Shown one piece after another: positions 29,341-49,479 of a stretch of 50,502 bases of DNA. The DNA is from Natrinema salsiterrestre (GTDB taxonomy: Archaea; Halobacteriota; Halobacteria; Halobacteriales; Natrialbaceae): assembly GCF_029502005.1 (NCBI RefSeq), contig NZ_JAMQOT010000017.1, positions 1 through 50,502 of the forward strand, read 5' to 3'. The position numbers and the translations under genes were made by a program. Positions within the stretch are counted from its first letter, which is position 1, and the number at the start of each line of letters is the position of its first letter. Under the pieces are notes generated by a model. The model ran no database searches, was not told the DNA's origin, and saw nothing but the letters and a program-made list of their open reading frames with translations.

Positions 29341-30975
29341 ATGCAGGATACTATCACGGAAGAGTATCTGCCGAACGAAGAGATCGCTCCGGAGTACGTC
29401 CATTCGCTTCCGGAGCTCCATTACCCGAACCAGATCAACGTGGTCGATGAACTGGTCGACCGCCACATCCGCGAGGGCCGCGGCGACAACGTCGCAATCT
29501 ACTTCGAGGATCGGGAGATCACGTACGAAGAGTTACAGGAGAAAGTAAACCGGATGGGGAACGCGCTTCGCGACCTCGGCGTCGAGGCCGGCGATCGAGT
29601 CGTCGTCCGGTTCCCGAACCGTCCCGAGGCGATCGTCTCGTGTCTGGCCGTCCAGAAGATCGGCGGGGTCGCCCTCCCGTCGATGAAACTCCTTCGGGCG
29701 AAGGAACTCGAGTACATTATCAACAACGCCGAAGCGTCGGCCGTCGTCGTCTACGACGACCTCCTCGACGAAGTCGAGAACGCGCTGCCCGAACTGGAGA
29801 CCGTCGACGATGTCGTCGTCGCCGAACGGAACGGAGTCGATCACAGCTATCACAGTTACGACGAGCTGCTCGACGACGCCGACGATGAGCTCGAGGCTTA
29901 CGAGACCGAATGCGACGATCTCGCGTTGATGCTGTATACGAGCGGAACGACCGGGCGACCCAAGGGTGCGATTCACACCCACCGGAACGTGTTGGCTACT
30001 GCGGACTCGTACGCGCGGTACTGTCTCGACCCGACCGAAGACGACGTCTTCGGCGGCAATCCGCCGCTTCCGTTCGCGTACGGATACGGCGACCTCGTGA
30101 CGTTCCCGCTTCGGTTCGGTGCGAGTACGAGTCTCGTCGAAGACGCCGATCCCGGCGATCTCCTGGAAGCAGTCGAAAATCACGGGACTTCGATCCTCTG
30201 TTCGATCCCGACTGGATTCAACCAGATCCTTTCCCAGCATCCCGACGGATCCGACGAGTACGACGTCTCGTCGCTTCGGCTCGGACTCAGTGCGGGTGAG
30301 CCGTTGACGCCCACGACCTTTGAAAACTTCAAATCCGAATACGGAATCGACCTCCTCGACGGTATCGGGACGACGGAGATGCTGCACATCTTCATCAGTC
30401 ACCGCCACGACGAGGAGATCGATCCGAGCGCTACCGGTTATCCGGTTCCCGGATACGAGTGTAAGATCATCGATCCCGATACCGGTGAGGACCTCGAGCG
30501 CGGCGAACCGGGGCTCCTCGCGGTCCGCGGTCCGACCGGGATCGCATACTGGGACCGGCCGGAAAAGCAACTCGAGGTGAACGAGGACGGCTGGTCGGTT
30601 CCGGGCGACATCTTCGTCCAGCGCGAGGATGGTCGACTGGAGTACAAGTCACGGAGCGACGATCTCATCATCTCGAGCGGCTACAACATTCCCGGCCCCG
30701 AGGTCGAGGCAGTCCTCGAAGAACACGATTCCGTTTCCGAGGTCGCAGTCGTCGGAAGTCCGGACCATCAGCGCGGTGAAATCGTGAAAGCGTTCGTCGT
30801 GCTGAACGGTGGCGCATCCGATAACGACGAGCTCGTTACGGAGCTCCAAAATCACGTGAAGAATACTCTCGCACCGTACAAGTATCCGCGCGAAGTTGAG
30901 TTCACGGAGTCCCTCCCCCGGACTGAGACTGGCAAGATCCGTCGAACAGAACTGCGTGAACGGGAGCGACAGTAA
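29341..30975 (+). CDS. Aryl/acyl-CoA ligase (benzoate/2-aminobenzoate-CoA ligase-like), candidate phenylacetate activator
   Basis: 544 residues of the ANL adenylating family: phosphate loop YTSGTTGRPKG, GIGTTEMLHIFIS (aromatic-acid ligase-like A5 motif), hinge region YKSRSDDLIISSGYNIPGPEVE, and the C-terminal catalytic Lys in ETGKIRR. It makes an acyl-CoA from an acid, ATP and CoA. The A5 motif and length fit benzoate-CoA ligase-type enzymes better than bacterial PaaK, so the acid may be phenylacetate, benzoate or a substituted relative. It stands alone, with a decayed regulator gene upstream; a TATA-like TATATGATTTAAAG lies about 25-30 bp before the start. Confidence 0.88.
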   Translation: MQDTITEEYLPNEEIAPEYVHSLPELHYPNQINVVDELVDRHIREGRGDNVAIYFEDREITYEELQEKVNRMGNALRDLGVEAGDRVVVRFPNRPEAIVSCLAVQKIGGVALPSMKLLRAKELEYIINNAEASAVVVYDDLLDEVENALPELETVDDVVVAERNGVDHSYHSYDELLDDADDELEAYETECDDLALMLYTSGTTGRPKGAIHTHRNVLATADSYARYCLDPTEDDVFGGNPPLPFAYGYGDLVTFPLRFGASTSLVEDADPGDLLEAVENHGTSILCSIPTGFNQILSQHPDGSDEYDVSSLRLGLSAGEPLTPTTFENFKSEYGIDLLDGIGTTEMLHIFISHRHDEEIDPSATGYPVPGYECKIIDPDTGEDLERGEPGLLAVRGPTGIAYWDRPEKQLEVNEDGWSVPGDIFVQREDGRLEYKSRSDDLIISSGYNIPGPEVEAVLEEHDSVSEVAVVGSPDHQRGEIVKAFVVLNGGASDNDELVTELQNHVKNTLAPYKYPREVEFTESLPRTETGKIRRTELRERERQ

Positions 30976-32688: not shown

Positions 32689-33609
32689 ATGCCAACAGAG
32701 AAGCAATTCAAGAAAGAGCTGCAGAACGGTCGAATGATCGAATCAACCGAAGAGATGACTGATGGATACAAGAAGGCGCTCAAACAGATCCTGATAGTCT
32801 CAGGCGACACCGAGCTGATGAGCGCACCCGCGTACTACGACCAGTCGCTCAACGCCCCGTCGCTCGACGCACGTGCATCGTGTATCAGCGTCATTCAGGA
32901 CGAACTCGGTCACGGTCACATCGCTTACCGACTGCTCGAGGACCTCGGTGAAGATCGCGAGGAACTCATTTACGAGCGCGAACCACACGAGTTCCGCAAT
33001 ACCTACGGCTTCGACCAGCACATCGATAACTTCGCGGAGCTCGTGACGGCTCACGGTATGTTCGATCGGGCGGGGATCGTTCTGCTCAGCGACATTCATG
33101 AGAACACCTCCTACGCGCCGTGGAAGCGCGCGCTCACGAAAGTGAGCAAGGAGGAACAGTTCCACCTCCGTCACGGCGAGACGTGGATGCGCCGACTCGC
33201 GAACAACAGCGAGAAGACCAAACGGCAGCTCCAGGAAGCGGTCGACTGGATGTTCCCGATGGGCGTCGAGTGGTTCGGGATGCCCGACGACAAAAAGAAA
33301 CACGACGACCAGCTCGAGTATCGCATCAAGGGCAAGTCCAACGACGAACTCCGACAGGACTGGCTCTCCCGTGCGCTACCGCTCATGAACGAGCTCGATC
33401 TCGATGTCCCCGCTCACTATGACGAGGACAGCGACGAGTACGTCCTCGACTACGACATGCCTGTCGCGTTCGACGAGGACAACAAGGAATGGCGATTCGA
33501 CGAATCGATCTCGTGGTCGGATGTCATGGACCGATGGCGGTCTCGCGGCCCGGCCAACGAGAAATACGTCAATCTGATCCAGTCCGGCAAAGTCGACGTC
33601 GAGGTCTAA
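32689..33609 (+). CDS. paaA: Phenylacetyl-CoA 1,2-epoxidase catalytic subunit PaaA
   Basis: 306 residues, the length of bacterial PaaA. The diiron four-helix-bundle ligands are recognisable: E42 (GDTELMS), E72 and H75 (QDELGHGH), E156 and H159 (KEEQFHLRHGE). PaaA inserts one oxygen atom from O2 into the aromatic ring of phenylacetyl-CoA, giving the 1,2-epoxide. It heads a tightly packed five-gene operon (paaA, paaD N-part, paaB, paaC, paaD zinc ribbon). Substrate could also be another aryl-CoA. The presence of an O2-dependent enzyme shows the route is aerobic. Confidence 0.93.
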   Translation: MPTEKQFKKELQNGRMIESTEEMTDGYKKALKQILIVSGDTELMSAPAYYDQSLNAPSLDARASCISVIQDELGHGHIAYRLLEDLGEDREELIYEREPHEFRNTYGFDQHIDNFAELVTAHGMFDRAGIVLLSDIHENTSYAPWKRALTKVSKEEQFHLRHGETWMRRLANNSEKTKRQLQEAVDWMFPMGVEWFGMPDDKKKHDDQLEYRIKGKSNDELRQDWLSRALPLMNELDLDVPAHYDEDSDEYVLDYDMPVAFDEDNKEWRFDESISWSDVMDRWRSRGPANEKYVNLIQSGKVDVEV

Positions 33610-33610
33610 G

Positions 33611-34006
33611 ATGTCGAGTGCACGCTCGGAGCGCAACGGACCGGCGGACACCTCGCTGAGCAGTGAGTTCGTCGAGGAACGTCGAGCCGACGCATCGCCG
33701 TTCGAACAACGACTGTGGGACGTCCTCGACGAGATTCCGGACCCACACATCCCGGTTAGCCTCGTTGAAATGGCGATGGTCTACGACGTCACCGAAGACG
33801 ACGGTCACGTCTCCGTCGAGATGACGTTCCCCTGTATGGGCTGTCCGGCTTACGACATGATCCACAACGACATCGAGAGCTGCCTGGCAGTGATCGACGG
33901 CGTCGATGACGTCGACGTCGACGTCGTCTGGGATCCCGTCTGGTCGAAGGAGTTGCTCACCCAGGAAGTCCGTGACAAGATGAACGAGTCCGGCATCAGC
34001 CTCTAA
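33611..34006 (+). CDS. paaD: PaaD, N-terminal MIP18/DUF59 part only
   Basis: 131 residues of the MIP18/DUF59 family, which helps to insert iron or iron-sulfur centres into target proteins. The motif FPCMGCPAYDMI (C75, C78) matches the SGCPA-type loop of PaaD, and DPHIPVSLVEMAMVYDV is the family start. Bacterial PaaD is about 165 residues and ends with a four-Cys zinc ribbon; this protein stops before it. The missing ribbon is found as a separate gene at the end of the operon (34988). It begins 2 bp after paaA. Confidence 0.88.
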   Translation: MSSARSERNGPADTSLSSEFVEERRADASPFEQRLWDVLDEIPDPHIPVSLVEMAMVYDVTEDDGHVSVEMTFPCMGCPAYDMIHNDIESCLAVIDGVDDVDVDVVWDPVWSKELLTQEVRDKMNESGISL

Positions 34007-34012
34007 CCACTC

Positions 34013-34225
34013 ATGAAATACGAAGTATTCGCACGAATCAACCAAGGTGACGATACGATACATATCGGTAACGTCACCGCGAAATCGGATCGGCTAGCAA
34101 AGATGTACGCACACAACACGTTCGACGAAGAGGATTGGGATCGGCTCGTCGTCGTCCGGGAAGACGACGTCCTGGAAGTGACCGACGGGTCGAAACCAGA
34201 ACTCGAGGTGGCGACCAATGAGTGA
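34013..34225 (+). CDS. paaB: Phenylacetyl-CoA epoxidase subunit PaaB
   Basis: 70 residues, shorter than the roughly 95 of bacterial PaaB but with the same pattern: YEVFARINQGDDTIHIGNVTA, then LAKMYAHNTFDEEDWDRLVVVREDDV. PaaB is a small subunit needed to assemble the active PaaABC oligomer. The start of paaC lies 8 bp inside its end. Confidence 0.88.
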   Translation: MKYEVFARINQGDDTIHIGNVTAKSDRLAKMYAHNTFDEEDWDRLVVVREDDVLEVTDGSKPELEVATNE

Positions 34226-34982
34226 GTGGCCCGACCCTGCGATCGACTACGTGCAGGCGATCACTGATACGAAACTCATCCTCGGCCATCGGTACGCCCA
34301 GTGGAGTCTTTCGGGACCCACACTCGAGGACGACATCGGCGGTGCGAGCGCCGCCCAAGAGGAGATCGGCCACGTGCGCCAGCTCATGCGCGAACTGGAA
34401 GCCCAGGGACGCGATGTCGACTGGCTCAGCGGCTCACGCGAACCGAAGGAGTTCGCCAACGCCGCATGTCTCGATCAGATCGACGGTACGTGGTCTTCGT
34501 ACATGGCCTCGATCGCACCTGCCGATCGCGCCGCGTGGTATCTGCTCGACGCAATCGATCAGGACGATCTCGAGGGACTGATCACCAAGATGGGCGAAGA
34601 CGAGTACTTCCACCTCGAATATCACGACGCTCGCCTCGAGACCCTCGCCGACGATGATCCCGAAACGGTCCAACGGACCCTCGAGGAGACGCTGCCCCAG
34701 GCACTCGCGCTCATCGGTCCGGCAGCGTACGACGAGGACGAGGATCCGCTGTACGATGCCGGCTTCACGGATCGGCCGATCGCCGAGATCCGGGAGTCGT
34801 TCGCCGACCACTACCGGGACCTGTTCGCGGACACGGACGTCTCGCTCACGGACGTCGACTGGGAAGCGCCCGCGCTCGATGACTGGGACGAAACTCGCCG
34901 TCGGATTGGTACCGGCGCGGTCGCTGAGACGGACGTGAAACAGATCCGCGGCGAAGAGAACCAGCTGTTCGCAATGAATTGA
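34218..34982 (+). CDS. paaC: Phenylacetyl-CoA epoxidase structural subunit PaaC
   Basis: 254 residues of the PaaC ferritin-like fold. It keeps two ExxH motifs (E49-x-x-H52 in QEEIGHVR and E129-x-x-H132 in EDEYFHLEYH) at the places where the catalytic PaaA has its diiron ligands; in E. coli PaaC, as I recall it, these are lost. The first-helix Glu of PaaA (E42) has no counterpart here (HRYAQWS). PaaC normally binds PaaA and supports substrate binding without catalysis. It overlaps paaB by 8 bp. Confidence 0.9.
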   Translation: MSEWPDPAIDYVQAITDTKLILGHRYAQWSLSGPTLEDDIGGASAAQEEIGHVRQLMRELEAQGRDVDWLSGSREPKEFANAACLDQIDGTWSSYMASIAPADRAAWYLLDAIDQDDLEGLITKMGEDEYFHLEYHDARLETLADDDPETVQRTLEETLPQALALIGPAAYDEDEDPLYDAGFTDRPIAEIRESFADHYRDLFADTDVSLTDVDWEAPALDDWDETRRRIGTGAVAETDVKQIRGEENQLFAMN

Positions 34983-35164: not shown

Positions 35165-35290
35165 ACGACCCCAGCTGACGTATAGTTCGCCCTCCCTCCC
35201 CATAGCATTCGCTATATTCAGGCCTTCTACTTGCCGATTTCAGTATGATTGGGAAAGATTAATATAGTGGGGTGCCAATTGGTGTCCTGT

Positions 35291-36133
35291 ATGCAACTCC
35301 GATCGTTCGATGAACTCGACCTAGAGTTCTTCACGACAGAAGTGAACAATCACGTCGGTATCCTCCGGCTCGACCGACCACCGGCGAACGCACACGATAT
35401 CGACGTCCTCCTCGAACTCCAGCGGGCCGTCGAGTCCATCCGATTCGACGAGAACGTCCGAGCCGTGCTCTTCGGCAGTGAGAATGACACGTTCTTCTCG
35501 ACCGGGTTCGATATCCAGGAGCTCGCCGATGAATCCGGGCGTCAGGTCGGCTATGCGAGCCAGACGAGCAAGGAGGTCATGATGAAGATCCGTTCGACCG
35601 ACACGATCTTCATCGCGATGGTGAACGGTCACTGCATGGGCGGCGGTCTCGAACTCGCACTCGCCTGTGACTTCCGATACATTGGTAACGACGAGAGCTA
35701 CAACATCGGGATGCCAGAGATCAGCCTCGGTCTCATCGCCGGCGAAGCGGGAACCCAGCTGCTCCCCCGCTACATCGACCGTTCCGAGGCGCTCGAGATG
35801 ATGCTTACCGGCGACACGTTCACACCGGAAGAAGCGACCGAGAAGGGCATCTTCGACAAGATCTTCCCGCCGGAGGAAATCGAGAACGCCGCCTTCGAAT
35901 TCGCCGAAGAACTCGTCCAGAAGCCGAGCGTTGCGGTCGGCAACAACAAGTTGGCTGTCAACGAAGGGCTCGAGATGCCTCTTCAGGATGCGCTGACCCA
36001 CGAGCGCGAACTCCAGAATCGACTGCTCGGGTCCGATGTTGCGGAGGAAGGCGTCAGTGCGTTCCTGAACGATCGTGAACCCGACTTCCTGGGCGTCGAG
36101 CTCGGTGACAAAGAACCAGGCGCGGAAGAGTAG
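35291..36133 (+). CDS. Enoyl-CoA hydratase with both catalytic Glu
   Basis: 280 residues of the crotonase family: oxyanion loops NDTFFSTGFDIQEL and NGHCMGGGLELALACD, with E121 and E143 (GMPEISLGLIAGEAG) at the hydratase positions. It should hydrate an enoyl-CoA, e.g. 2,3-dehydroadipyl-CoA as PaaF. A TATA-like AGATTAATATAG lies about 30 bp before the ATG at 35291, supporting this start rather than one at 35249. It has its own promoter but follows the paa operon closely. The C-terminal tail (GVELGDKEPGAEE) is acidic. Confidence 0.88.
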   Translation: MQLRSFDELDLEFFTTEVNNHVGILRLDRPPANAHDIDVLLELQRAVESIRFDENVRAVLFGSENDTFFSTGFDIQELADESGRQVGYASQTSKEVMMKIRSTDTIFIAMVNGHCMGGGLELALACDFRYIGNDESYNIGMPEISLGLIAGEAGTQLLPRYIDRSEALEMMLTGDTFTPEEATEKGIFDKIFPPEEIENAAFEFAEELVQKPSVAVGNNKLAVNEGLEMPLQDALTHERELQNRLLGSDVAEEGVSAFLNDREPDFLGVELGDKEPGAEE

Positions 36134-36271: not shown

Positions 36272-37234
36272 CTACGGCGTCAATGACAAGCCGACCGGGT
36301 ACGAGTCGACCGCCGGACGGTATCGGACCGTCTCTCCCTCGAGCCGCTCGACGATCTCGAGTGCGGCGAGTCGTTGCAGGTGCGCGGCCGCCTCGCCTGC
36401 ACCGAATTTCGCGTGAATCCCCTCCATCTCACCGAACAACTGTCTCGCTACCTCCCACGGGGTCGTTTCCGCCGCCTCGACAGTCGAGATCGCTTGAAAG
36501 GCTGCTTCGGCGCGTTCCCGATGGTGACGTCGCACGTCAGCGATCGCTTCCGCGATAGCGATTTGCGTTCCGTGACCGGGATTCCCGTACTGCCGTGTTG
36601 ATTCGAGCCGGCTCACCGACGAGAGATACTTGCCGAGCGGATCCTCGAGCCGAGTATCGCTTCCGCCGACGTTCGGCGTATACGTCGGCAAAAGGAGGTC
36701 ACCGAGGAAGACCGCTTCACCCGTTCGCAGCGAAACGTGACCGCCCGTATGGCCCGGTGTATGAACGAATTCGATACCGGCGACGGTGTCGCCGTCCTCG
36801 TGTCGGACCACGGGAAACGAGTCCGGGAGCGGCGACGGCGTATCACCACGAAGAACGTCGTCTCGGATCGATTCCGGGAGTCCCCACCGCTCGAGTACCC
36901 GTCGGTCGCGACGGAGTCGCCGTTCCCGGGCCGTCGCGTATTCACCGATCAGTGGCGCATCATCGTGATGGGCGTGTACCGATGCGTTAGCGCGATCCGC
37001 GAGACGGGCCGTCAGACCGGCGTGGTCGATGTGCCAATGAGTCACGAAGACGTGAGCGACGTCCTCGAGGGCCAGGTCGGCATCTGCAATTCCATCTCGG
37101 AGTGCAGTCCAAGCCGCGTCTGACGGCGGACCGGGATCGATGACGACCCCGCGTTCCGGAAGGACGTATGCGCTGTTCGTTCCCTCCGGTGATCCCTCGC
37201 CGACCGAAATACGAACCGCGTCACTCACGGACAT
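36272..37234 (-). CDS. MBL-fold metallohydrolase (LACTB2-like)
   Basis: 320 residues: metallo-beta-lactamase domain with HWHIDHAG (metal ligands), H in HTPGHTGGH, D in FLGDLLLP and NPGHGT, followed by a helical C-terminal winged-helix-like region with EGIHAKFGAGEAAAHLQRL. Related enzymes hydrolyse thioesters or phosphodiesters. Its start lies 14 bp inside the UbiD-like gene, making it the last gene of the UbiD operon; it may be a CoA thioesterase acting on the product. Confidence 0.85.
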   Translation of the reverse strand: MSVSDAVRISVGEGSPEGTNSAYVLPERGVVIDPGPPSDAAWTALRDGIADADLALEDVAHVFVTHWHIDHAGLTARLADRANASVHAHHDDAPLIGEYATARERRLRRDRRVLERWGLPESIRDDVLRGDTPSPLPDSFPVVRHEDGDTVAGIEFVHTPGHTGGHVSLRTGEAVFLGDLLLPTYTPNVGGSDTRLEDPLGKYLSSVSRLESTRQYGNPGHGTQIAIAEAIADVRRHHRERAEAAFQAISTVEAAETTPWEVARQLFGEMEGIHAKFGAGEAAAHLQRLAALEIVERLEGETVRYRPAVDSYPVGLSLTP

Positions 37235-38648
37235 CGTTCACTCCCTGTTCGCCGAGCAGTTCCTCGAGTCCCAGCTCTTCCCACCGCTCGACGAGCGATT
37301 CAAGCACGTTCTCGGAAAACGTCGTCTCGAAGGTCACTCGAGGGGCGATGTATTCTTCGTCCCACCGCGGATCCCACGTGGCGTTGATGTAGAGTCTGGA
37401 GCCGTTCTCATCGGCGGAACGATAAACGGGTGCCGCAGCACTCGACGCGTTCGGCTCGCTGAAGACCCAATCGTTGGCGGGATGGGCTTTGACCCACATA
37501 TCGTCGATCGCTCGAGCGAGGTTCGTCGGATCGGCTTGTTCGTCAAGGACGAGTACTTTGTCGAACAGTTTGGAAAACGAAAACATCGTGTTCGCCAGCT
37601 GCCATTCGAACCCCGCGTACAGGATTTCGCTCGAAACGATACACAGACCGAGCCGTCCTTCGACCGGGATCTGGATCCACTTGACTGGCGAAACGCCCCA
37701 GTAGTTGTTGACTCGACGGAGAAGTTTCGCCGTCTCGACGAGACACGTGAGGTGCAGATCATCAGTAAGCGGCTCGCCGAGCGGGGTGAATGGGACAATC
37801 GCTTGTTCGCGGAGCGCAATCGACTCGGTTTCGACGTCGACGGTCGCCGTATCGCACGTCAGTTCCCACGCTGCCTTCGGACCGTTTTCGTTGTCCGCCA
37901 TTGGCTTTTCGACGATGCTCATCCGCCCGTCGATGCGGGCTTCGGCGTCCGCCGGGACGATCCTTGATCCAACCGCTGCCATCGATACGTCGGTCAATCC
38001 GGCGGCCAGTTCCGGAACGGTCGGTGACGGCTGAACCTGGGTCCATCCCTGGAGGGCAGCGACGAGGGACGCTGCCGAGACGCCGAAGACGACGCTCGCA
38101 TCGGACTCCTGAGTACACCACTCGGCGAACGATGCGGGGACAGAGAGCCGGAGTTTCTTGCTCCGCTGCGTCACTCCCCTGATCGGGGCCCAGGTCGTGA
38201 CGCCGTCTTTCTCGACGACGAGGAGGCCGAGAGAGACGAGCGGCGATCCGTCGTCGGTCGTTGGCAACCCGAGATCGTAAATGTCCATATCGTCACGGAC
38301 GGTCGTTGCCACCTCGTCGGTCAGGTAGTCGTCGACGTCGACGGACTCCTGCCGTACCAATCGTTCGACCAATTTACTATACGAACAGTCCGCTCCGAGG
38401 TCAAGCGCCTGCGTGATTCTCTGCCACGGTTGTTGATCGATTCCAGCGAACTGATCAGCGCCCCCGTAGACGCCACTCGCGAGCCGTATCTCACCGGACG
38501 TGTTCTCGAACAGCGTTACGGGACAGTTGTGCCGTATCGCCTCGCTCGCGACCTCGGCGGCCGCTCCGTCCCAGTGGACGCGTTCCGTCACCGAGACCAG
38601 ATCGTTCGTTTCGCGGAGTCGTTCGAGGTGCTGTCTTACCGATGACAT
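37221..38648 (-). CDS. UbiD-family protein lacking the catalytic E-GPFG-E motif
   Basis: 475 residues with the UbiD fold: LRETNDLVSVTERVHWDGAAAEVA at the start and HLTCLVETAKLLRRVNNYWG near the prFMN/oligomer region. In the place of the EGPFGE motif that carries out UbiD chemistry it reads MADNENGPKAAWELT, so the catalytic glutamates are missing. Partner UbiD genes are adjacent (TAATG overlap of 1 bp with the upstream UbiD). It is probably a non-catalytic subunit of a heteromeric (de)carboxylase, as in phenylphosphate carboxylase, which contains more than one UbiD-like chain. Confidence 0.78.
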   Translation of the reverse strand: MSSVRQHLERLRETNDLVSVTERVHWDGAAAEVASEAIRHNCPVTLFENTSGEIRLASGVYGGADQFAGIDQQPWQRITQALDLGADCSYSKLVERLVRQESVDVDDYLTDEVATTVRDDMDIYDLGLPTTDDGSPLVSLGLLVVEKDGVTTWAPIRGVTQRSKKLRLSVPASFAEWCTQESDASVVFGVSAASLVAALQGWTQVQPSPTVPELAAGLTDVSMAAVGSRIVPADAEARIDGRMSIVEKPMADNENGPKAAWELTCDTATVDVETESIALREQAIVPFTPLGEPLTDDLHLTCLVETAKLLRRVNNYWGVSPVKWIQIPVEGRLGLCIVSSEILYAGFEWQLANTMFSFSKLFDKVLVLDEQADPTNLARAIDDMWVKAHPANDWVFSEPNASSAAAPVYRSADENGSRLYINATWDPRWDEEYIAPRVTFETTFSENVLESLVERWEELGLEELLGEQGVNDVRE

Positions 38649-40141
38649 TACGATCCCTCCCCCGGGTCGACGAACGGGAGACTATTCGGGTCGACGCCCG
38701 CTCGTTCGAGTGTTTTTTGGGCTCGATACCTCCGTTCGACGTCGGTCGTCTCTCGCACCGCTTTCCCTTCTCCCCCGCTGGTCGCATCGATGTACGCCTT
38801 TGCCGTCTTCGCCTTCGACGTTCCGGTCTGAACGTCGCCTTTCTCGGTCGGCGTCTGATAGATGTTCAGTGGTACCTTCGGCATGGTTTCGACGCCGAAC
38901 TGGTGAAAGTCCGTATCCGGGTCCGCGTGCAGGGTGAGCGCCTCGAGCACTTCCCGCTGATTTAGCGGATTGACGTCCGCGTCGACGAATATGAAAAAGT
39001 CGACGTGTAACATTCCCCACGTCGTGAAGATGAAATTCGCCATATCGTGCAGGTAACTCGGATTGTTCTTCTCGGTCGAGATCGCATACACTGTTCTCGG
39101 TGTCGACTTCCACGGGGCACAGCACTCGACGTCGAATCCGGCCGTTCGAAGTCCGAGCGTCGCATCCGGACCGACACAGCCGATCTCCATCGAGCTGGTT
39201 GCGTTCTCCGAATGCCCGACGCCGGTCCCCTCGACACAGAACGGGAGTATCGGGTTCTCTTGATGGGTGATAGCCGACACTCGGAACAGTGGCATCGATC
39301 GTCTGGGGCCGTGCATGTACCCGAAGTAATCGCCGAACGGACCTTCGTCCCGCCGTTCGTTCGGGAGGATTTCGCCCTCGATAACGAGCTCCGCCGTCGC
39401 CGGAACTCGGAGGTCGTTGGTTTGGCAGGGGACGAGTTCGACCGGTTCCTGTTTCAGACCGCCCGCGTACTCCGCCTCGTTTCGGCCCGTCGGAATCCAC
39501 ATCACGGACGTGTACTGAACGGCGGGCTCTACACCGACCGCGATCGCGACCGGCATCGGCTCGTTCCGCCGTTCGTACTTGTAGTAATACAGATTCGGCG
39601 TCTGTTCTCCGGCTAATAGGAGAACGCTGCTTGTCTCGCTATCGTGGATCATCGATCGGTGGTACGACCAATCGACCCACTCGGAATCGGGGTCCGGCGC
39701 GATGAGCGTGTGAAGATTCGAGTAGCGACCGCCGTCGCCCGCGTGAATGTACGGCCACGGGAAATCCAGCAGGTCGACATCGTCGTCCGTCCGAACGACG
39801 TCCTTACAGGGCGCATCATCCGCGGAGACGGTTTCCGGTTCTATCGGATTCTTCAATCGCTCGATCACCGACTCGTAGTATTCCCTGTAGGAGAGATCCG
39901 GAGGGAGTCCCAGTCCGAGCGCGATCCGATCCCAAGGTCTGCGCTGAGATCCCCGGTATGGATCACCGACGAGTCGTGCCGTTTCGACGTTTTCAAACAG
40001 CGGCACCCGGCTGTCTTCTTCGTTCAATAGCATCGTAACGGCACTGGCTTCCAGATTCCACGAAACCGGTTCAGAGATACGATGGAGATCGTCGCGCATT
40101 TCGAGCGTCTGGAGATACTGACGAAGGCTGCTGACCGTCAT
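38648..40141 (-). CDS. UbiD-family decarboxylase (probable catalytic subunit)
   Basis: 497 residues, the usual UbiD length. R162 (SYHRSMIHD) and the motif E266-GPFG-D271 (RRDEGPFGDYFGYMHG) match the Arg and first Glu of the catalytic set; the second Glu is Asp here. UbiD enzymes use prenylated FMN to add or remove CO2 on aromatic or unsaturated acids. No UbiX prenyltransferase is in the window. It is coupled to a small unknown gene upstream (4-bp overlap) and a degenerate paralogue downstream. Candidate substrates: a (hydroxy)benzoate, phthaloyl- or naphthoate-type acid; none can be chosen from sequence. Confidence 0.85.
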   Translation of the reverse strand: MTVSSLRQYLQTLEMRDDLHRISEPVSWNLEASAVTMLLNEEDSRVPLFENVETARLVGDPYRGSQRRPWDRIALGLGLPPDLSYREYYESVIERLKNPIEPETVSADDAPCKDVVRTDDDVDLLDFPWPYIHAGDGGRYSNLHTLIAPDPDSEWVDWSYHRSMIHDSETSSVLLLAGEQTPNLYYYKYERRNEPMPVAIAVGVEPAVQYTSVMWIPTGRNEAEYAGGLKQEPVELVPCQTNDLRVPATAELVIEGEILPNERRDEGPFGDYFGYMHGPRRSMPLFRVSAITHQENPILPFCVEGTGVGHSENATSSMEIGCVGPDATLGLRTAGFDVECCAPWKSTPRTVYAISTEKNNPSYLHDMANFIFTTWGMLHVDFFIFVDADVNPLNQREVLEALTLHADPDTDFHQFGVETMPKVPLNIYQTPTEKGDVQTGTSKAKTAKAYIDATSGGEGKAVRETTDVERRYRAQKTLERAGVDPNSLPFVDPGEGS

Positions 40142-40635
40142 CGGTGATCGTGCAACTCCTCGGCCAGTTCACTCCGTTCCGACTGTATTTTGAGATCGAT
40201 GTACTCGCTGACGAGTTCGGGATACGTATCGGAAAGGTACTCAAGCATGATCGTTCGACTCGCCTCGGAGACGGACTCGTACTCTCCTTTTTCGGTGAGA
40301 TACTGGAGTAGTGTCTTTACTTCCTCCGATCGAGTATTGATGACCGTCGATTGGTTCTGAATGTCCGTCAGCGTCGATTCCAGTAACTCGGCGTCGATCA
40401 GGTCGCCGCTGTCCGTCTCGAGGATATCGATGTACCACTCCTCTTCAGTGTTTTCGTGGGGCCCCTTTACGACGGTTAGCGTGTCCGGATCGGCGAGGGT
40501 ATCCGGATCCCTGTCGATTTTAGCGCGAATGTCGAAGATCTCTTTCGTTTCCTCGTCGCTCACCTGCAACTGGATCTCCTCCCCTTTCGGGTCATCCGGT
40601 AGGTTGCTTTCGGACGTGATGTACTTTCCTGCCAT
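40138..40635 (-). CDS. Unknown acidic protein, first gene of the UbiD operon
   Basis: 165 residues that I do not recognise. The N-terminal half is beta-rich (GEEIQLQVSDEETKEIFDIR, DTLTVVKGPH, EWYIDILET), the C-terminal half helical (SVSEASRTIMLEYLSDTYPELV). There are no Cys and no membrane helix. Its stop overlaps the UbiD start by 4 bp, so it is probably made with and bound to the UbiD proteins as a small subunit. The ATG at 40635 is chosen; an upstream TTG at 40647 would add four residues. Confidence 0.65.
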   Translation of the reverse strand: MAGKYITSESNLPDDPKGEEIQLQVSDEETKEIFDIRAKIDRDPDTLADPDTLTVVKGPHENTEEEWYIDILETDSGDLIDAELLESTLTDIQNQSTVINTRSEEVKTLLQYLTEKGEYESVSEASRTIMLEYLSDTYPELVSEYIDLKIQSERSELAEELHDHR

Positions 40636-42256: not shown

Positions 42257-44068
42257 GTGACACAGACGCGCGATCACGTTATCCGGATTGATCTCTCGGC
42301 GCGGACGGTTCATCGCCAGCCCGTTCCGGAGCGGTGGCGTCGGCAGTTCCTCGGCGGTAAAGGGCTCGGCGCTCGATACCTGTACGAAGAACTGGGGGCG
42401 GCTACCGATCCCCTGGGACCGGACAACCTGCTTGGGTTCATGCTCGGTCCACTGTCAGGCTACCTCCCTGGGGATACACGATACGCCGCGGTCACGAAAT
42501 CGCCGCTCACCGGTGGATTTCTCGACTCCTACGCCGGCGGGCAGTTCCCCGCTCGTCTCGCGGGGGCCTGTCCGGACTGTCTCGGCGTTCTCGTGACGGG
42601 ACAGGCGGACTCGCCGGTCGCGATCCTGATCGACGAGAGTGAAATCGAGATCACCAGTGCAGACGATCTCGTCGGGGCTGACGTCGAGGCCGTCACAGAT
42701 ACCTTTCCCGACGCCGCCGTAGCGTGTATCGGCCCGGCGGGGGAATCGCTGGTCAGGTATGCATCTATCGCGTCCGACGGTGGGGACCACCACGCCGGTC
42801 GAGGCGGTGCGGGTGCGGTTATGGGCTCGAAGAACCTCCAGGCGGTCGTCGTCCGCGGTGATCCGATTCGACCGACCGGCGATCTCGAGAAACTACACCG
42901 ACGGTACGCCGAGGCGTATCGAGATCACGACACCGGCCGCTGGTTGCGTGCGGGAGCGACGATCGAGAGCCTCGATTTCGCCGACGAAACTAGAATGCTC
43001 GCTACTCGAGGATGGCAGGAGACGGCGTTCGACGGGAGCGATGCGATCGGCGTCGAGGCCGCCAGCGCGGCCGCCCACGAGCGGGAGTATCCCGACGAAG
43101 ACCATCCCGGAGGATTCCGTATCGAAACCGACGACGGTGAAACCGTCCCGCGCGGCGGGGCCGCGATGACATTAGGTGCAGGGCTCGGAATCGACGACTT
43201 CGAGGACATCGCGGCGCTCGGAGCGCGCTGCGATCGCCTCGGGCTTGACGTGATCAGTGTCGGGAACGCCATCGCGTGGGCGATACGAGCGACCGATGCG
43301 GGACACGTCGACTGCGATGTCTCGTTCGGGAACGCCGACGCCATCGCGGCGCTGTTAGACCGGATCGCGACGCGCGAGGGGCCGGTCGCGGACGCGCTGG
43401 CCGACGGCGTCGCCGTCGCGGCCGACCGCTACGGCGGCGAGGCGTTCATTCCGACCGTGAAGTCGATGGCGGTCCCGTCGTATGATCCGCGCCGCGCCGG
43501 TAGCATGGCGATCGCGTACGCGACGAGCGATCGAGGGGCCTGCCACCGTCGTGCGCGCCCGTTCGAGCGAGAGGCTTTCGACGGGGAGTGGTCGCTCGAA
43601 AAGCAGGTTCGGGCGGTCGTCACTGCACAGAACGCGCGCTCAGCCCTCTGGAGTCTCCCGACGGATGACTTCCTCGGCGAGGTATTCGACGATCTGGGCG
43701 CGGAGTGGCTCGCCGCGCTCGGACGGACGGACGACGCCAGTGATCTCTACCGGCTGGGCGAACGAGTGTGGACGCTCGTTCGGTTGTTCAACGTCCGTGA
43801 GGGATTCGATCGGGCAGATGATAGCCTCCCGCCGGTCTTTCGTGAGCCGACTGTCGACGGACGGAAGAGCTATATCGACCCGGACGAGTTCGAGCGAGCA
43901 CTTGATCGCTACTATGGCGCTAGGGGATGGGGACCGAACGGTCGGCCACTCGCCGACACACTCGCCCGACTGAAACTCGACGACGTCGTCGACGACGAGA
44001 CGCCGCTCGGCACTCCGTCAACGGACGGTTCAGACGGCTTATCCGCGAGCGACCGCCACGATGCGTGA
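42257..44068 (+). CDS. Aldehyde ferredoxin oxidoreductase family protein lacking the Fe-S cysteines
   Basis: 603 residues, normal for tungsten-pterin AORs. N-terminal domain: FLGGKGLGARYLYEEL, GPLSGYLPGDTRYAAVTKSP, GRGGAGAVMGSKNLQAVVVRG; middle: LGAGLGIDDFEDIAALGARCDRLGLDVISVGNAIAWA; late: GACHRRARPF. The CxxCxxxC that binds the [4Fe-4S] cluster should precede ETDDGETVPRGG; instead there is EYPDEDHPGGF, and no C-terminal partner Cys is seen near WSLPTDDFLGEVFDDL. A different CxxC (C105, C108) occurs earlier. AORs oxidise aldehydes, including phenylacetaldehyde or benzaldehyde, to acids. Start is GTG at 42257. Confidence 0.8.
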   Translation: MTQTRDHVIRIDLSARTVHRQPVPERWRRQFLGGKGLGARYLYEELGAATDPLGPDNLLGFMLGPLSGYLPGDTRYAAVTKSPLTGGFLDSYAGGQFPARLAGACPDCLGVLVTGQADSPVAILIDESEIEITSADDLVGADVEAVTDTFPDAAVACIGPAGESLVRYASIASDGGDHHAGRGGAGAVMGSKNLQAVVVRGDPIRPTGDLEKLHRRYAEAYRDHDTGRWLRAGATIESLDFADETRMLATRGWQETAFDGSDAIGVEAASAAAHEREYPDEDHPGGFRIETDDGETVPRGGAAMTLGAGLGIDDFEDIAALGARCDRLGLDVISVGNAIAWAIRATDAGHVDCDVSFGNADAIAALLDRIATREGPVADALADGVAVAADRYGGEAFIPTVKSMAVPSYDPRRAGSMAIAYATSDRGACHRRARPFEREAFDGEWSLEKQVRAVVTAQNARSALWSLPTDDFLGEVFDDLGAEWLAALGRTDDASDLYRLGERVWTLVRLFNVREGFDRADDSLPPVFREPTVDGRKSYIDPDEFERALDRYYGARGWGPNGRPLADTLARLKLDDVVDDETPLGTPSTDGSDGLSASDRHDA

Positions 44069-44089
44069 CTCGAACCGGCCGCCGGTAGG

Positions 44090-44359
44090 TTACCGAAGCT
44101 CCATCTTTTCCGCGCGTTCAACTGCGAGCTCGGTGATCTCGCTGACGGAACTATCGGAACGGTCCGCGAGCACGCGGAGCAACATGCCGAGCTGAATCGC
44201 GGCCGTCTCTCGGAGTTCCGCCGCTTCCTCCGTATCGTTACCGAAGTAGTACTCGTGGCGACCATCGTCGTGGATGAGCCCGGTGTATACGGATCGGAGA
44301 TCGTCTTCAGTAACTGCCTCGGCCGCTTGTTCCTGAACGTCGTCGAATTGCGGATGCAT
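44090..44359 (-). CDS. Small conserved-looking haloarchaeal protein of unknown function
   Basis: 89 residues, mostly helical and acidic: HPQFDDVQEQAAEAVTEDDL, HEYYFGNDTEEAAELRETAAIQLGMLLRVLAD and a C-terminal helix. Codon pattern and acid content match real genes, and I recall similar haloarchaeal proteins without a function. It is convergent with the AOR gene, 21 bp between stops. Confidence 0.6.
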   Translation of the reverse strand: MHPQFDDVQEQAAEAVTEDDLRSVYTGLIHDDGRHEYYFGNDTEEAAELRETAAIQLGMLLRVLADRSDSSVSEITELAVERAEKMELR

Positions 44360-44596
44360 TATCGTCCCATCGATCCGTTCGATGTACCCTCAAAGCTTCG
44401 ATACCGATTCAACCGATGATTCAGACGACAGACTTCGGTCGTCGGCATCATATCGGGACTCGTGTTCTCCTGTCGATGGCTATCTCGAGTTCGGTCACTG
44501 TAGAAGTCAGTGAAATACTTCGAAGAACCTCGAGGCACGCTCCGTTCTTCCGTGCCTCCGTTCTGGTCGCGGACACGCTACGATGTGACATTCGGG

Positions 44597-44608
44597 TATT
44601 TTTTAATA
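44597..44608 (+). promoter_or_regulatory. TATA box of the formate dehydrogenase operon
   Basis: TATTTTTTAATA is centred about 30 bp before the ATG at 44633, giving a leaderless or nearly leaderless transcript and supporting this start. Confidence 0.5.
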
Positions 44609-44632
44609 CCTGCCTGCAAACCGTGGGTATCG

Positions 44633-46156
44633 ATGACGGATCATACAGGAGTCATTGGCGGCCCGCCGATCGTCCGTGTCTCGGCGGCGGTTGCGGCGGA
44701 TCGGGGCGACCGCATCTCCACCGCCGCTCGTGATGCCGCGGACTCCGTGCGAGTCGTCCGAACCGGGCCAACAGGTATCGCGGAACTGGAGCCGCTCGTT
44801 CTCGCGACCGACGGTGGACTGACCGGTTTCTTTCACTCGCCGTCCCCGTCGACGGTTCGAGACCTCGTCACGGAGCTGGAATCGGGCGAGGTTCCGACCG
44901 CCCGTGCAGATGCCATCGTCGAACACGACGCGGACACTCGATCGCTTCCGATTCCAGACAACGGTCCCCTCTCGACGGGGCACCGACTCGTCCTCGGTCC
45001 CTGCGGCTGGGTCGATCCACTCGACCCAGCCGACTACGCACTTTCCCCGACAGAACGCGACGCCGGTGGGTCCGCGGACGCGGGAATAATAGCCCGTGGA
45101 CGGGGCGATGCCGTCGCCGACGAACCGGCCGCCGACGCCTGGGAACGCGCCCGCGAGACCGACGGGGATCCGGTCGTCGTCGTCAACGTGAACGAGTCCG
45201 ACGGCCGACAGCAGGCCGACCGAACGCTGCTCGCCGGTGCCCCGATTGCAGTCCTCGACGGCGTCGCGGCGGTCGCAGAGTACGTCGGTGCCGAGGACGC
45301 GGTCATCTACCTGAACGAACGCGAGACCGAACTCCAGCACCACGTTCGACAGGCGGTGGATGCGGTCGAAGACGAGCTGTCGGTAGCCCCGGATGTCGTC
45401 GCCGGCCCGGACGAGTACCGCGCCGGCGCGCCGACGGCGGCCCTCGAGGTAATGGAGGGGGCAGACCGGATCGAGCCGCGTCGACAGCCACCAACACCGG
45501 CCGAGTACGGCCTCTACGGGCGGCCGACGGTCGTTCACACACCGCGAACGTTCGCGCAGATCCAACGGGCACTTCGAACGCCGAAGTCGCTCGATGCAGA
45601 GGCGCCGGATCCGGGGACGCGACTCGTCACTGTAACCGGCGACGTCGAGACGCCGGCAACCGTCGAGCTGGATTCCGGAACGACACTCGAGGCGACTCGC
45701 GACGCCGTTTCGATGAACGGTTCGTTCAAAATGGCCTGCGTCGGCGGTGTCTTTGGCGGGATAACTACCGATTTGGACGTCCGTCCCACTGCATCGTCAC
45801 TCACCGCTGCAGGTCTCGGGACTGACGGGGTCGTCGAACTGTTGAGCGACGACCGCTGTGCGGTCGCGACCGCCGGCAAGCGGGCGCGGTTCGCGTCCGA
45901 GGAGAACAGCGGCCGGTGCGTTCCAGGGCGAGAGGGAACGAAACAGCTCACGGAGCTGCTCCGCGAGATCTATCGGGGTTCGTTCGAGAGCGACGAGATC
46001 CGCGAACTGGGGCGCGTGATGGCCCGCTCGAGCAACTGCCAGATCGGGACCCGCGCCCCGCGGCCGGTCGTAACGGCAATGGACGAGTTCGAACCGGAGT
46101 TCCGGGTTCACGCCGACGGACGATGTCCGAACGGGACGTGTAGTGAACAACTATGA
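44633..46156 (+). CDS. NuoF/FdsB-like NAD-linked subunit with altered FMN and Fe-S motifs
   Basis: 507 residues similar to the 51-kDa NADH/FMN subunit of complex I and NAD-linked formate dehydrogenases. The FMN loop reads ARGRGDAVAD (usually GRGGAGFPTG), the NADEGEP segment is NVNESDG. In the cluster motif ES-C-G-x-C-x-P-C-R, two Cys are replaced (S426, G432), C429 and the distant C469 remain. It overlaps the formate dehydrogenase gene by 4 bp (ATGA) and so should be its electron-transfer partner, but its flavin and cluster binding are in doubt. Start chosen at 44633 from TATA spacing; a longer in-frame reading from 44510 would run through the promoter. Confidence 0.78.
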   Translation: MTDHTGVIGGPPIVRVSAAVAADRGDRISTAARDAADSVRVVRTGPTGIAELEPLVLATDGGLTGFFHSPSPSTVRDLVTELESGEVPTARADAIVEHDADTRSLPIPDNGPLSTGHRLVLGPCGWVDPLDPADYALSPTERDAGGSADAGIIARGRGDAVADEPAADAWERARETDGDPVVVVNVNESDGRQQADRTLLAGAPIAVLDGVAAVAEYVGAEDAVIYLNERETELQHHVRQAVDAVEDELSVAPDVVAGPDEYRAGAPTAALEVMEGADRIEPRRQPPTPAEYGLYGRPTVVHTPRTFAQIQRALRTPKSLDAEAPDPGTRLVTVTGDVETPATVELDSGTTLEATRDAVSMNGSFKMACVGGVFGGITTDLDVRPTASSLTAAGLGTDGVVELLSDDRCAVATAGKRARFASEENSGRCVPGREGTKQLTELLREIYRGSFESDEIRELGRVMARSSNCQIGTRAPRPVVTAMDEFEPEFRVHADGRCPNGTCSEQL

Positions 46157-49100
46157 GTACGCACGAGCCACTTCCACGAGTACCGACGATCGACGATCGA
46201 CAAGACAAGACGCCAGTGACGGCGACGTTCGAGACCGGCACTGCGAACGATCCGCCTGCCGGCACGGCCGGCGAGGGGTCGACAACTCTCTCGGTCAACG
46301 GACAGTCGGTGACCGTTTCGGCCGGGTCGACCGTCATCGACGCGATGCAGGCAGTCGACGACGAAACGGTCTCGGTCGATGTGGGAGCCGACAGCCTTGG
46401 AGACGACGTCGACGTTCCTGCACTGTGTCACTACGATCGGGAGGGCGACGTGAGCGACGAAATCGGGCCACGAAGCGAATGCCGGACCTGCATGGTCGAG
46501 ACGGCCGAACACGGTCTCGTCCCTTCCTGTTCGTTCCCCGCCGAGGACGGGTTGACAGTCAGGACCGACACGGCCGACGCCGAGGAAAGCCGGAGCGTCA
46601 ATCTCGACCTCGTCCTATCGAATCACAACCTCCGCTGTACGACCTGTAACGGAAACGGTCAGTGCGAACTTCAGGACGCCGCGATCAGCGAGGGCGTCGA
46701 CCATCCGCGTTACGACGTATTCGCAGACAGAGACGAGTACGAGCCGATCGACGACACATCGTCGTTCATCCAGATCGACCGCAACAAGTGCATCCTCTGT
46801 AATCGGTGCGTCGAGGGGTGCAACGACGTACAGGTCGAGGGCGTGCTCCGCATTGAGGGACACGGTGAGGACACCCGGATCGGATTTCAGTCGGATGCGG
46901 AGACGATGGCCGAGTCGGACTGCGTCTCCTGTGGTCACTGTGCGACGGTCTGTCCGACTGGTGCGCTCACCGAGAAGGGGATCGGCGGTGCCGCAACTCT
47001 CCCGTTGCCCGGCTTCACGCAGCGCAACTCCATCGGGAAGACCATCGAAACCGACGAGGTCGAGACGCTGGACGATACGACCGCACCGAATCGGCCTCCC
47101 GAACCCAGTGGAGCCCCTACTTCCGTCGGAGCGGCCGGCTCCGACGACGCGACGGGTATCGCTCGCTTCATAGAGAGGGCCAGAAGCCGCGCGACTGAAC
47201 TGACCAGCGAGTACGGTCATAAGGCGGTTCTGGTCGGCGAACACACCGCCGAGGGCATTGCGATGAACACGCTTCCCGAAGGGCGACTCTTCAATATCGC
47301 CGATTTCGTCAGCGACGTTCGTCTCGACCGCATCGATACCGAAGAGACGACGTGTGGCTTCTGTGCGGTCGGCTGTCGGTTCGAGATGTGGGGCAAAGAC
47401 GGCGAAACGATCGGCGTCAAACCGGTCGACGATCCGACTGCAGCGCCCGCTAATAACTTTTCGACCTGCGTGAAAGGGAAGTTCGGCCACGAGTTCGCAA
47501 ACAGCGATGAACGACTCACGGAACCGCTCGTCCGGACCGGATCCGGGGATTTCAAACCCGTCTCGTGGGATGAGGCCCTCGAGTACGTCGCAGAGAACCT
47601 CCGGGAGATTCAGGACGAGCACGGTGTCGACACCGTCAGCTGTCTCGCGTCGTCGAAGGGAACGAACGAGGAGGCGTACCTCGTCCAGAAGTTCGCCCGG
47701 CAGGTTCTCGGAACCAAGAACGTCGACAATTGCGCCCGCCTCTGTCACTCCTCGACGGTTGCGGCCCTCCAGCAGACGCTGGGCTACGGTGCGATGACTA
47801 ACCGGATCAACGAGGATATCGGCGAGGCCGACGCCTATCTCATCACCGGGTCGAACACGACCGAGAGTCACCCCGTTCTGGCGACGCGTATCAAACAGAA
47901 CGTCCGCGACGGTGCCGATCTGGTCGTGTTCGACCCGCGAAAAATCGGTATTGCCGAACACGCCGACCAGTATACCCGGACCGAGCCGGGCTACGACGTG
48001 GCCTGGATTAATGGACTGATCCGGTATATCATCGAGCATGATCTCCACGACGAGGACTTCATCGAACGCAATACCAGGAACTTCGACGAACTCCGCGAGA
48101 AGGTTCGGCCGTATACGCCACAGCGGGTAGAGGAGGTCGCGGGAGTCCCAGCCGACGAACTCGAGTCGGCCGCAGAGACCCTCGCTGAGGCCGATACCGT
48201 CGTCTTCGGCTGGGCGATGGGGATGACTCAGTCCAGCCACGGCACCCAGAACGTCCTCGCGCTCGCGAATCTCGCGCTCACGCTCGGCCAACTCGGGAAA
48301 CCCGGCGCCGGTCTCTCGCCGTTCCGGGGCCAGAACAACGTGCAGGGCGGTGGCGGGGACATGGGGACCCTTCCCGGTAGTCTGCCAGGGTACCAGGATC
48401 CGTCCGATGACGAGGTTCGAGCGAAATTCGCCGACGCTTGGGGTGAGCAGCCGCCGGCCGAACCCGGTCTCAAGGTGCCCGAGATGTTCAGTGAGGCTCA
48501 CAATGAGAATCTTCGAGGGATGTACATCGTGGGAGAGAACCCAGCGCTCTCCGAACCCGACGTTCAGCATGCCGAGAAAGCCCTCGAAGCGCTGGACTTT
48601 CTCGTCGTTCAGGACATCTTCATGACCGAAACCGCCGAACATGCCGACGTGGTCCTCCCTGCGGCCACGTCACCGGAGAAACACGGGACGTTCACCAACA
48701 CGGAGCGGAGGATTCAGCGCGTTCGTCCGACAGCTGAACCGCCCGGCAATGCACGGCAAGACTGGGAGATCACCCAAGAGTTAGCGAACCGCTTAGGCTA
48801 CGATTGGGACTACGGACATCCTCGGGAGATCATGGATGAGATCAGCGATATCGCACCGATTTACGGCGGCGTCAACTACGAGCGCCTCGAGAACGGACAC
48901 CACCACGGGCTGCAGTGGCCAGTTCCGGACGACGATCATCCCGGAACGCCGTACTTGTACGATTACGACGACGGAGACTTCAACTTCGAGGACGGACGCG
49001 CTCGCTTCGTACCGGCTGATAGCGGGCAGCCCGGCGAAATTCCCGACGAGAACTATCCCCTGACGCTCACGTCAGGCCGCGTCCTCTATCACTGGCATAC

Positions 49101-49479
49101 CGGTCAGCTCACTCGCCGCGTCGAGGGACTCATGAGCCACATCGGCGAGAGCTTCGTCGAGATCAACCCCGAGTTAGCCGAGCGAGTCGGTATCGCCGAC
49201 GGGGACTACGTCCGCGTCGAATCCCGCCGCGGCGAAATTGTCGTCAAAGCACAGATAACCGATCGCGTCGACGCAGGGACGCTGTTCATACCGATGCACT
49301 TTGCCGCCGGTGCGGTCAATAAACTCACTCAAGAGACGTACGACCCGAAGTCGGGCATTCCCGAGTACAAGGTCTCGAGCGTCCGCATCGAACCGCTCGG
49401 ACCGGAGACCGACGCCGACGTGCTTCGAACGCCGGATGTCGGAGCGGGCGGCGATGGAACCGCTACCGGCGACGACTGA
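46153..49479 (+). CDS. Molybdenum/tungsten formate dehydrogenase alpha subunit, FdsA/NuoG-type
   Basis: 1108 residues. In order: [2Fe-2S] domain (C92, C110, C113, C126); NuoG-like His-Cys3 motif (HNLRC162TTC165...C171); two [4Fe-4S] sites (C213/216/219/223 and C257/260/263/267); catalytic molybdopterin domain with its own [4Fe-4S] (C401/404/408/439) and metal ligand C531 in ARLCHSST; the C-terminal MopB domain ends with TSGRVLYHWHTG...MHFAAGAVN. The organisation is that of NAD-dependent formate dehydrogenases, which oxidise formate to CO2. All ligands are intact, in contrast to its NuoF-like partner. The Mo-ligand is Cys, not selenocysteine. Confidence 0.9.
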   Translation: MSTHEPLPRVPTIDDRQDKTPVTATFETGTANDPPAGTAGEGSTTLSVNGQSVTVSAGSTVIDAMQAVDDETVSVDVGADSLGDDVDVPALCHYDREGDVSDEIGPRSECRTCMVETAEHGLVPSCSFPAEDGLTVRTDTADAEESRSVNLDLVLSNHNLRCTTCNGNGQCELQDAAISEGVDHPRYDVFADRDEYEPIDDTSSFIQIDRNKCILCNRCVEGCNDVQVEGVLRIEGHGEDTRIGFQSDAETMAESDCVSCGHCATVCPTGALTEKGIGGAATLPLPGFTQRNSIGKTIETDEVETLDDTTAPNRPPEPSGAPTSVGAAGSDDATGIARFIERARSRATELTSEYGHKAVLVGEHTAEGIAMNTLPEGRLFNIADFVSDVRLDRIDTEETTCGFCAVGCRFEMWGKDGETIGVKPVDDPTAAPANNFSTCVKGKFGHEFANSDERLTEPLVRTGSGDFKPVSWDEALEYVAENLREIQDEHGVDTVSCLASSKGTNEEAYLVQKFARQVLGTKNVDNCARLCHSSTVAALQQTLGYGAMTNRINEDIGEADAYLITGSNTTESHPVLATRIKQNVRDGADLVVFDPRKIGIAEHADQYTRTEPGYDVAWINGLIRYIIEHDLHDEDFIERNTRNFDELREKVRPYTPQRVEEVAGVPADELESAAETLAEADTVVFGWAMGMTQSSHGTQNVLALANLALTLGQLGKPGAGLSPFRGQNNVQGGGGDMGTLPGSLPGYQDPSDDEVRAKFADAWGEQPPAEPGLKVPEMFSEAHNENLRGMYIVGENPALSEPDVQHAEKALEALDFLVVQDIFMTETAEHADVVLPAATSPEKHGTFTNTERRIQRVRPTAEPPGNARQDWEITQELANRLGYDWDYGHPREIMDEISDIAPIYGGVNYERLENGHHHGLQWPVPDDDHPGTPYLYDYDDGDFNFEDGRARFVPADSGQPGEIPDENYPLTLTSGRVLYHWHTGQLTRRVEGLMSHIGESFVEINPELAERVGIADGDYVRVESRRGEIVVKAQITDRVDAGTLFIPMHFAAGAVNKLTQETYDPKSGIPEYKVSSVRIEPLGPETDADVLRTPDVGAGGDGTATGDD

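Follow-up and report, generated by a model that had tools for sequence, protein, structure and literature searches.

The window, the whole of contig NZ_JAMQOT010000017.1 (50,502 nucleotides) from the 4.79 Mb genome of the haloarchaeon Natrinema salsiterrestre, carries four minus-strand genes, each overlapping the next. Two UbiD-family genes, alpha and beta, are preceded by the gene of a small protein, small165, and followed by that of a metallo-β-lactamase (MBL)-fold hydrolase:

40138..40635, minus strand: small165, 165 residues, operon-head protein, found 5' of alpha in 65/65 named loci.
38648..40141, minus strand: UbiD alpha, 497 residues, catalytic-type UbiD with PF20695, PF01977 and PF20696.
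37221..38648, minus strand: UbiD beta, 475 residues, a predicted degenerate UbiD paralogue (pseudoenzyme) with the UbiD fold kept and the catalytic acidic residues and E233 lost.
36272..37234, minus strand: MBL-fold metallo-hydrolase, 320 residues, lineage-specific accessory gene (PF00753, E 9e-21).

In Pfam, alpha was matched by three UbiD domains with 230.8, 55.2 and 49.8 bits, all above the cut-off (PF01977, E 1e-68), and it is the sole PF01977 protein of the source genome. Beta was matched in Pfam at its N-terminal (E 1e-10) and C-terminal (E 6e-13) UbiD domains only, with no match to the catalytic PF01977. The protein at the head of the operon had been called unrecognised in a first-pass annotation made from the sequence, and small165 indeed gave zero family matches in Pfam or NCBIfam.

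When beta was used as the query, it was detected in 85 of 391 Halobacteria genomes. Alpha directly adjoins beta in 60/60 fetched loci and small165 was detected in 58 of them. An independent scan of named genomes yielded 65 loci, all from Halobacteria and including Haloferax, Haloarcula, Natrinema, Halorubrum and Natrialba, with the order small-alpha-beta in 65/65; a plasmid search with beta returned matches from haloarchaea only. One locus (L138), in which the alpha frame was not cleanly recovered, was excluded from the residue counts given below (n=64). The spacing is 10 bp or less between the small and alpha genes in 59/64 loci and between alpha and beta in 53/64, mostly as 4-bp overlaps, and the three genes are usually translationally coupled. 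The first-pass annotation had described a four-gene operon closed by an MBL hydrolase and had named a lack of joint conservation as a refuting condition. The joint conservation holds for small165, alpha and beta, and the nature of the last gene is borne out by its PF00753 match. With the MBL gene restricted to one lineage, however, the conserved unit is reduced from four genes to three. As a core subunit the MBL hydrolase was rejected, being displaced or absent at many loci.

In the literature, UbiDs are described as absolutely dependent on prenylated flavin mononucleotide (prFMN) made by UbiX, which is regarded as obligatory. It had been remarked earlier that no UbiX lies near the operon, which understates the case: no UbiX was found in the source genome, whose single PF02441 protein is a CoaBC of 390 residues. 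Confusion of a UbiX with CoaBC was ruled out there, the hit having been read directly. In each of the 85 beta-positive Halobacteria genomes exactly one PF02441 match was found, in an open frame at least as long as that of a CoaBC (outside the source genome CoaBC identity was judged on this length), and 0/85 carry a recognisable UbiX. An assembly gap was rejected as an explanation, since all 85 genomes, with a completeness of 94-100%, are without UbiX. A haloarchaeal UbiX profile run at E<=10 on 44 beta-positive genomes returned noise only (best E 0.04), and the same profile recovered UbiX in 4/4 control genomes.

Among 381 Halobacteria genomes, UbiX (TIGR00421 above cut-off) was found in 31 and a PF01977 UbiD in 114; Haloferax volcanii gave no TIGR00421 match. 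These 114 genomes comprise 83 with beta and without UbiX and 31 with UbiX and without beta, none having both and none having neither, and the two sets are disjoint even inside genera g1, g30 and g43, which hold species of both kinds. By chance an overlap of 6.8 would be expected and the probability of a zero overlap is 3e-4, a figure that serves as a guide only given shared ancestry. Alpha is assigned to the UbiD family by sequence, but it departs from the dependence on UbiX by which the family is characterised. Since the unit-bearing genomes are without recognisable UbiX, the unit probably obtains or replaces the prFMN cofactor by an unrecognised route. The co-expression with UbiX proposed in the first-pass annotation may be unsuited, as no tested unit-bearing haloarchaeal genome encodes UbiX. 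A look through the literature on UbiDs lacking UbiX and on a 'ubiD operon protein' yielded no account of such an arrangement.

The active-site residues were numbered on Fdc1 through PDB alignment, the PDB entry used being the E282D variant. The alpha codons concerned are the following:

39656..39658, minus strand: alpha R162 (Fdc1 R173), R in 64/64.
39344..39346, minus strand: alpha E266 (Fdc1 E277), E in 64/64.
39329..39331, minus strand: alpha D271 (Fdc1 position 282), D in 64/64.
39671..39673, minus strand: alpha D157 (position of Fdc1 N168), N in 1/64.

The earlier claim that one UbiD keeps the catalytic motif stood after alignment, in which R162, E266 and D271 are retained; E222 of alpha (Fdc1 E233) is also invariant (64/64). 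The invariant R/E/D triad and E233 point towards retained catalysis. At the Fdc1 N168 position, 63/64 alpha sequences have D, R, S, T, H or Q. The 13 comparator UbiDs of catalytic type, taken from other loci and in part from UbiX-bearing genomes, have asparagine there, and a fourteenth comparator, the beta protein of a genome of another class (G593), has V. UbiDs bind prFMN through Mn2+/K+, and in Fdc1 the Mn2+ to which the prFMN phosphate is bound is held by N168, H191 and E233. Since H191 is variable among UbiDs generally, the change at N168 alone carries information; a change of H191 to Q was rejected as a mark of prFMN loss, Q being also present in UbiDs of UbiX-bearing genomes. The D or R found at the N168 position might still bind metal or phosphate. 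A K391 to W change is present in the alignment but was left unused, the local alignment being uncertain.

In UbiDs, an E-R-E/D network adjoins prFMN (PMC5818171), and this network is fully kept in alpha. Its conservation would suit an ordinary prFMN-dependent UbiD, served either by a prenyltransferase unrelated to UbiX (small165 or an unlinked gene) or by small165 as the carrier of scavenged prFMN, and the gene of small165 is the only constant companion of the two UbiD genes. This explanation is a conceivable but somewhat unlikely one: the model of small165 gave no flavoprotein fold match and the literature search yielded no flavin prenyltransferase other than UbiX.

Beta has lost E233, E277 and E/D282, and its R173 position is mostly R or H. 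That the paralogue is devoid of the motif had been claimed beforehand together with the check to be made, and after alignment the motif was still absent. In a few single beta sequences an E is aligned to E277, in a gappy region and without the surrounding motif. Beta has 51 invariant columns of its own and its AlphaFold model adopts the UbiD fold, with a mean predicted local distance difference test (pLDDT) of 79.8 and template modelling (TM) scores of 0.6-0.67 to solved UbiDs. Because of these invariant columns and of the predicted fold, beta is considered to be a conserved pseudoenzyme and not a decaying gene. The altered metal-site position of alpha, the lack of UbiX and this dead paralogue could also be understood if alpha were no longer engaged in decarboxylation chemistry, the complex for example binding acyl-coenzyme A (acyl-CoA) or regulating a pathway. 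Such a loss of function is highly improbable in view of the triad and E233 equivalents, conserved in 64/64, and of the CoA ligases that adjoin the operons, like those of the benzene, naphthalene and phenol carboxylation routes.

The split between alpha and beta is ancient. In a tree of 47 proteins, haloarchaeal alpha and haloarchaeal beta form separate clades with full support, and a recent duplication of alpha inside the haloarchaea as the source of beta was ruled out by this tree. In G593, relatives of alpha and beta lie side by side, with a small open reading frame (ORF) and a CoA ligase. The beta-like protein of this genome keeps R173 and E277 and has lost N168, E233 and position 282; on these residues, it represents a putative intermediate state. 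Because G593 holds one of each side by side, the alpha/beta pair is, on the sequences compared, older than the Halobacteria, unless it was exchanged between the class of G593 and the Halobacteria.

Homologues of small165 are mostly of 158-170 residues, with GPHE (58-61), R102 and R127 invariant. The N-terminal half, which carries GPHE, is β-rich and the C-terminal half is helical; in the predicted model, five strands are followed by helices (pLDDT 81, predicted TM score 0.49), and neither a PDB sequence match nor a confident PDB fold relative was found. Several identities were tried and rejected: UbiX, there being no TIGR00421 or PF02441 match and no flavoprotein match of the model; a VdcD-like protein, the alignment being devoid of cysteine pairs (two-CXXC zinc ribbon); and an LpdD-like protein, for which neither sequence nor fold support was obtained. 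Homology to the gamma subunit of phenylphosphate carboxylase gave no NCBIfam match. Between the N-terminal half and ORFs of 112-118 residues beside UbiDs in G593 and G565, the hhalign probability was 41%, which is suggestive only; this similarity is compatible with a gamma-like subunit and does not establish one. In two genomes of another class (L201:7121-10667 and L203:960-3052), ORFs of 93-118 residues flank UbiDs that branch with haloarchaeal alpha, and these ORFs may be related to the N-terminal half of small165. The homologue of Natrinema sp. DC36 (L218:12002-12496) is annotated 'ubiD operon protein', so that annotators had noticed the linkage.

The C-terminal half of small165 gave weak ribbon-helix-helix (RHH), ParD/CdrS-like matches in up to 15/51 homologues. 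Combined with the position of the gene at the head of the operon, these matches would be in agreement with an RHH-type autorepressor, beta then being a structural filler and alpha alone the regulated decarboxylase. We hold this to be distinctly unlikely, as no conserved operator palindrome was found 5' of the small165 gene in either of the two lineages described below, GPHE, the most conserved motif, sits in the half that is not RHH-like, and every UbiX-free alpha genome among the 83 also carries beta.

The operon is best read as encoding a heteromeric UbiD-type (de)carboxylase with a pseudoenzyme partner, operating without recognisable UbiX, a reading to which we attribute a probability of about 0.55. 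We infer the physical complex, its substrate, the direction of the reaction and the cofactor along the following lines. The acid/base active site would be that of alpha, with its E-R-D triad. Beta, whose own active site is lost, would contribute to the oligomer structurally or by allostery, and small165 would be a third, obligate partner acting as subunit, maturation factor or regulator. The cofactor would be either other than UbiX-made prFMN or prFMN provided by an unrelated enzyme. For the UbiX-free clade as a whole, the balance tilts reasonably towards (de)carboxylation that either relies on another cofactor in place of prFMN or draws its prFMN from an entirely new kind of flavin prenyltransferase, beta and small165 being involved in the change. 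In the window's lineage, the complex would probably act on an aromatic acid, or on what this acid becomes by decarboxylation, next to a Paa-like pathway of CoA-dependent ring epoxidation. From the heteromeric aromatic (de)carboxylase proposed in the first-pass annotation, the heteromeric UbiD-type enzyme is thus retained as the best reading, with small165 as a constant partner, and the word 'aromatic' extends only as far as the window's lineage, whose gene neighbourhood backs it.

Some observations weigh against a heteromeric enzyme working without UbiX. The partition between UbiX and beta is in part phylogenetic, reflecting shared ancestry, so that the 114 genomes should not be counted as so many separate events. 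It is possible that a UbiX is present whose divergence puts it beyond the reach of both PF02441 and the haloarchaeal profile. Because its C-terminal half resembles DNA-binding RHH proteins, small165 may serve in regulation and not as a subunit. Finally, G593 has UbiX genes as well as the pair, so that prFMN may well have served the pair in its ancestral form.

As to the new heteromeric system suggested in the first-pass annotation, carboxylases that combine two UbiDs with a small subunit are a kind already known, from phenylphosphate carboxylase and, for the two UbiD-like subunits, from the Desulfatiglans enzyme (PMC7500099). PpcABCD of Thauera aromatica and the phenylphosphoamidate carboxylase of Desulfatiglans anilini, of which the second is reported to function with FMN, are alike in their two UbiD-like subunits and CoA-linked carboxylation, a small subunit being present in Thauera (PMC7500099). 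As in phenylphosphate carboxylase, two UbiD-like genes and a small gene stand together (65/65 loci) in the present system, which is known from its genes. Equivalog membership was not found: alpha scored 169 bits versus 564.6 for TIGR02723 and beta 17.5 versus 468.95 for TIGR02724. Neither a delta phosphatase nor a phenylphosphate synthase was recognised in the locus. Unlike Ppc, the unit has a degenerate beta, belongs to a genome without UbiX and occurs in haloarchaea beside genes of an oxygen-dependent pathway.

The naphthalene carboxylase of N47, with four UbiD-like subunits, and the benzene carboxylase AbcA are similarly multi-subunit and followed by CoA ligation, but they belong to strict anaerobes, prFMN is assumed for them and a dead paralogue is not described in the portion of the source available (PMC12016498). 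In VdcCD, a UbiD likewise depends on a small protein from its operon that forms an integral subunit (PMC8379154); there, however, VdcD is a zinc ribbon of ~10 kDa with two CXXC, the UbiD is single and UbiX is required, whereas small165 is without CXXC. The prFMNH2 chaperone LpdD (PMC10865409) and the prFMN maturase PhdC (PMC13040415) are likewise small UbiD operon partners, but both handle UbiX-made prFMN and no sequence or fold match of small165 to either was found. The canonical haloarchaeal UbiD and UbiX pairs (31/381 Halobacteria) belong to the same Pfam family; they differ in that the UbiDs sampled keep the asparagine at the N168 position and always occur with UbiX, never with beta. If the widespread UbiX-free UbiD clade is confirmed, it would mean either a second route of prFMN synthesis or UbiD-type C-C chemistry without prFMN, and either outcome bears on CO2-fixing biocatalysis. 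Beta would be a clear archaeal example of a pseudoenzyme partner within the UbiD family.

Two lineages of the unit were distinguished by their neighbourhoods. In the window's lineage the MBL gene lies 3' of the unit, in a few genomes 5', and the syntenic context consists of PaaA/PaaC/PaaD-like genes, an enoyl-CoA hydratase and a benzoate-CoA ligase family protein. In the window these are:

29341-30975, plus strand: benzoate-CoA ligase family protein (TIGR02262, 384.9 bits versus a cut-off of 375.25).
32689-33609, plus strand: PaaA-like protein (133.6 versus 280 bits, under the equivalog cut-off).
33611-34006, plus strand: PaaD-like protein (under the equivalog cut-off).
34218-34982, plus strand: PaaC-like protein (47.5 versus 133 bits, under the equivalog cut-off).
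35249-36133, plus strand: enoyl-CoA hydratase, a context gene of the lineage.

Because the Paa-like proteins score under the equivalog cut-offs, they are read as a diverged (aryl-CoA) epoxidase that is not clearly the standard phenylacetyl-CoA one, and its substrate may be another. On the 3' side of the unit in the second lineage lie genes for an adenosine monophosphate-forming CoA ligase, an acyl-CoA dehydrogenase, a biotin-dependent acyl-CoA carboxylase (two genes), a hydratase of the MaoC type and a CoA-ester lyase. These two contexts suggest different substrates, aromatic in the window's lineage; as a speculation from the operon order, that of the second lineage is perhaps a branched or terpenoid-like acid. 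A second-lineage array that includes a RipB-like hydratase and a RipC-like lyase is found on a plasmid of Haloarcula sinaiiensis (L217:15485-23992), and its gene order might, speculatively, suit a pathway in which an alkene is carboxylated to give a 3-methylcrotonate-type acid, or else the breakdown of branched acids.

On the other side of the UbiD locus in the window, an aldehyde ferredoxin oxidoreductase-like gene is followed by NuoF-like and formate-dehydrogenase-like genes (42257-49479), and an fdhF/NuoF pair likewise adjoins the unit in Haloterrigena turkmenica. Directly after the formate-dehydrogenase-like gene, the product of 49545-50279 is, by sequence appearance, a putative YqeC-like accessory protein for selenium or molybdenum cofactors. 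At the start of the contig (193-1905), three tandem and mutually similar proteins of ~190 residues look like putative paralogues of the Dps/ferritin type.
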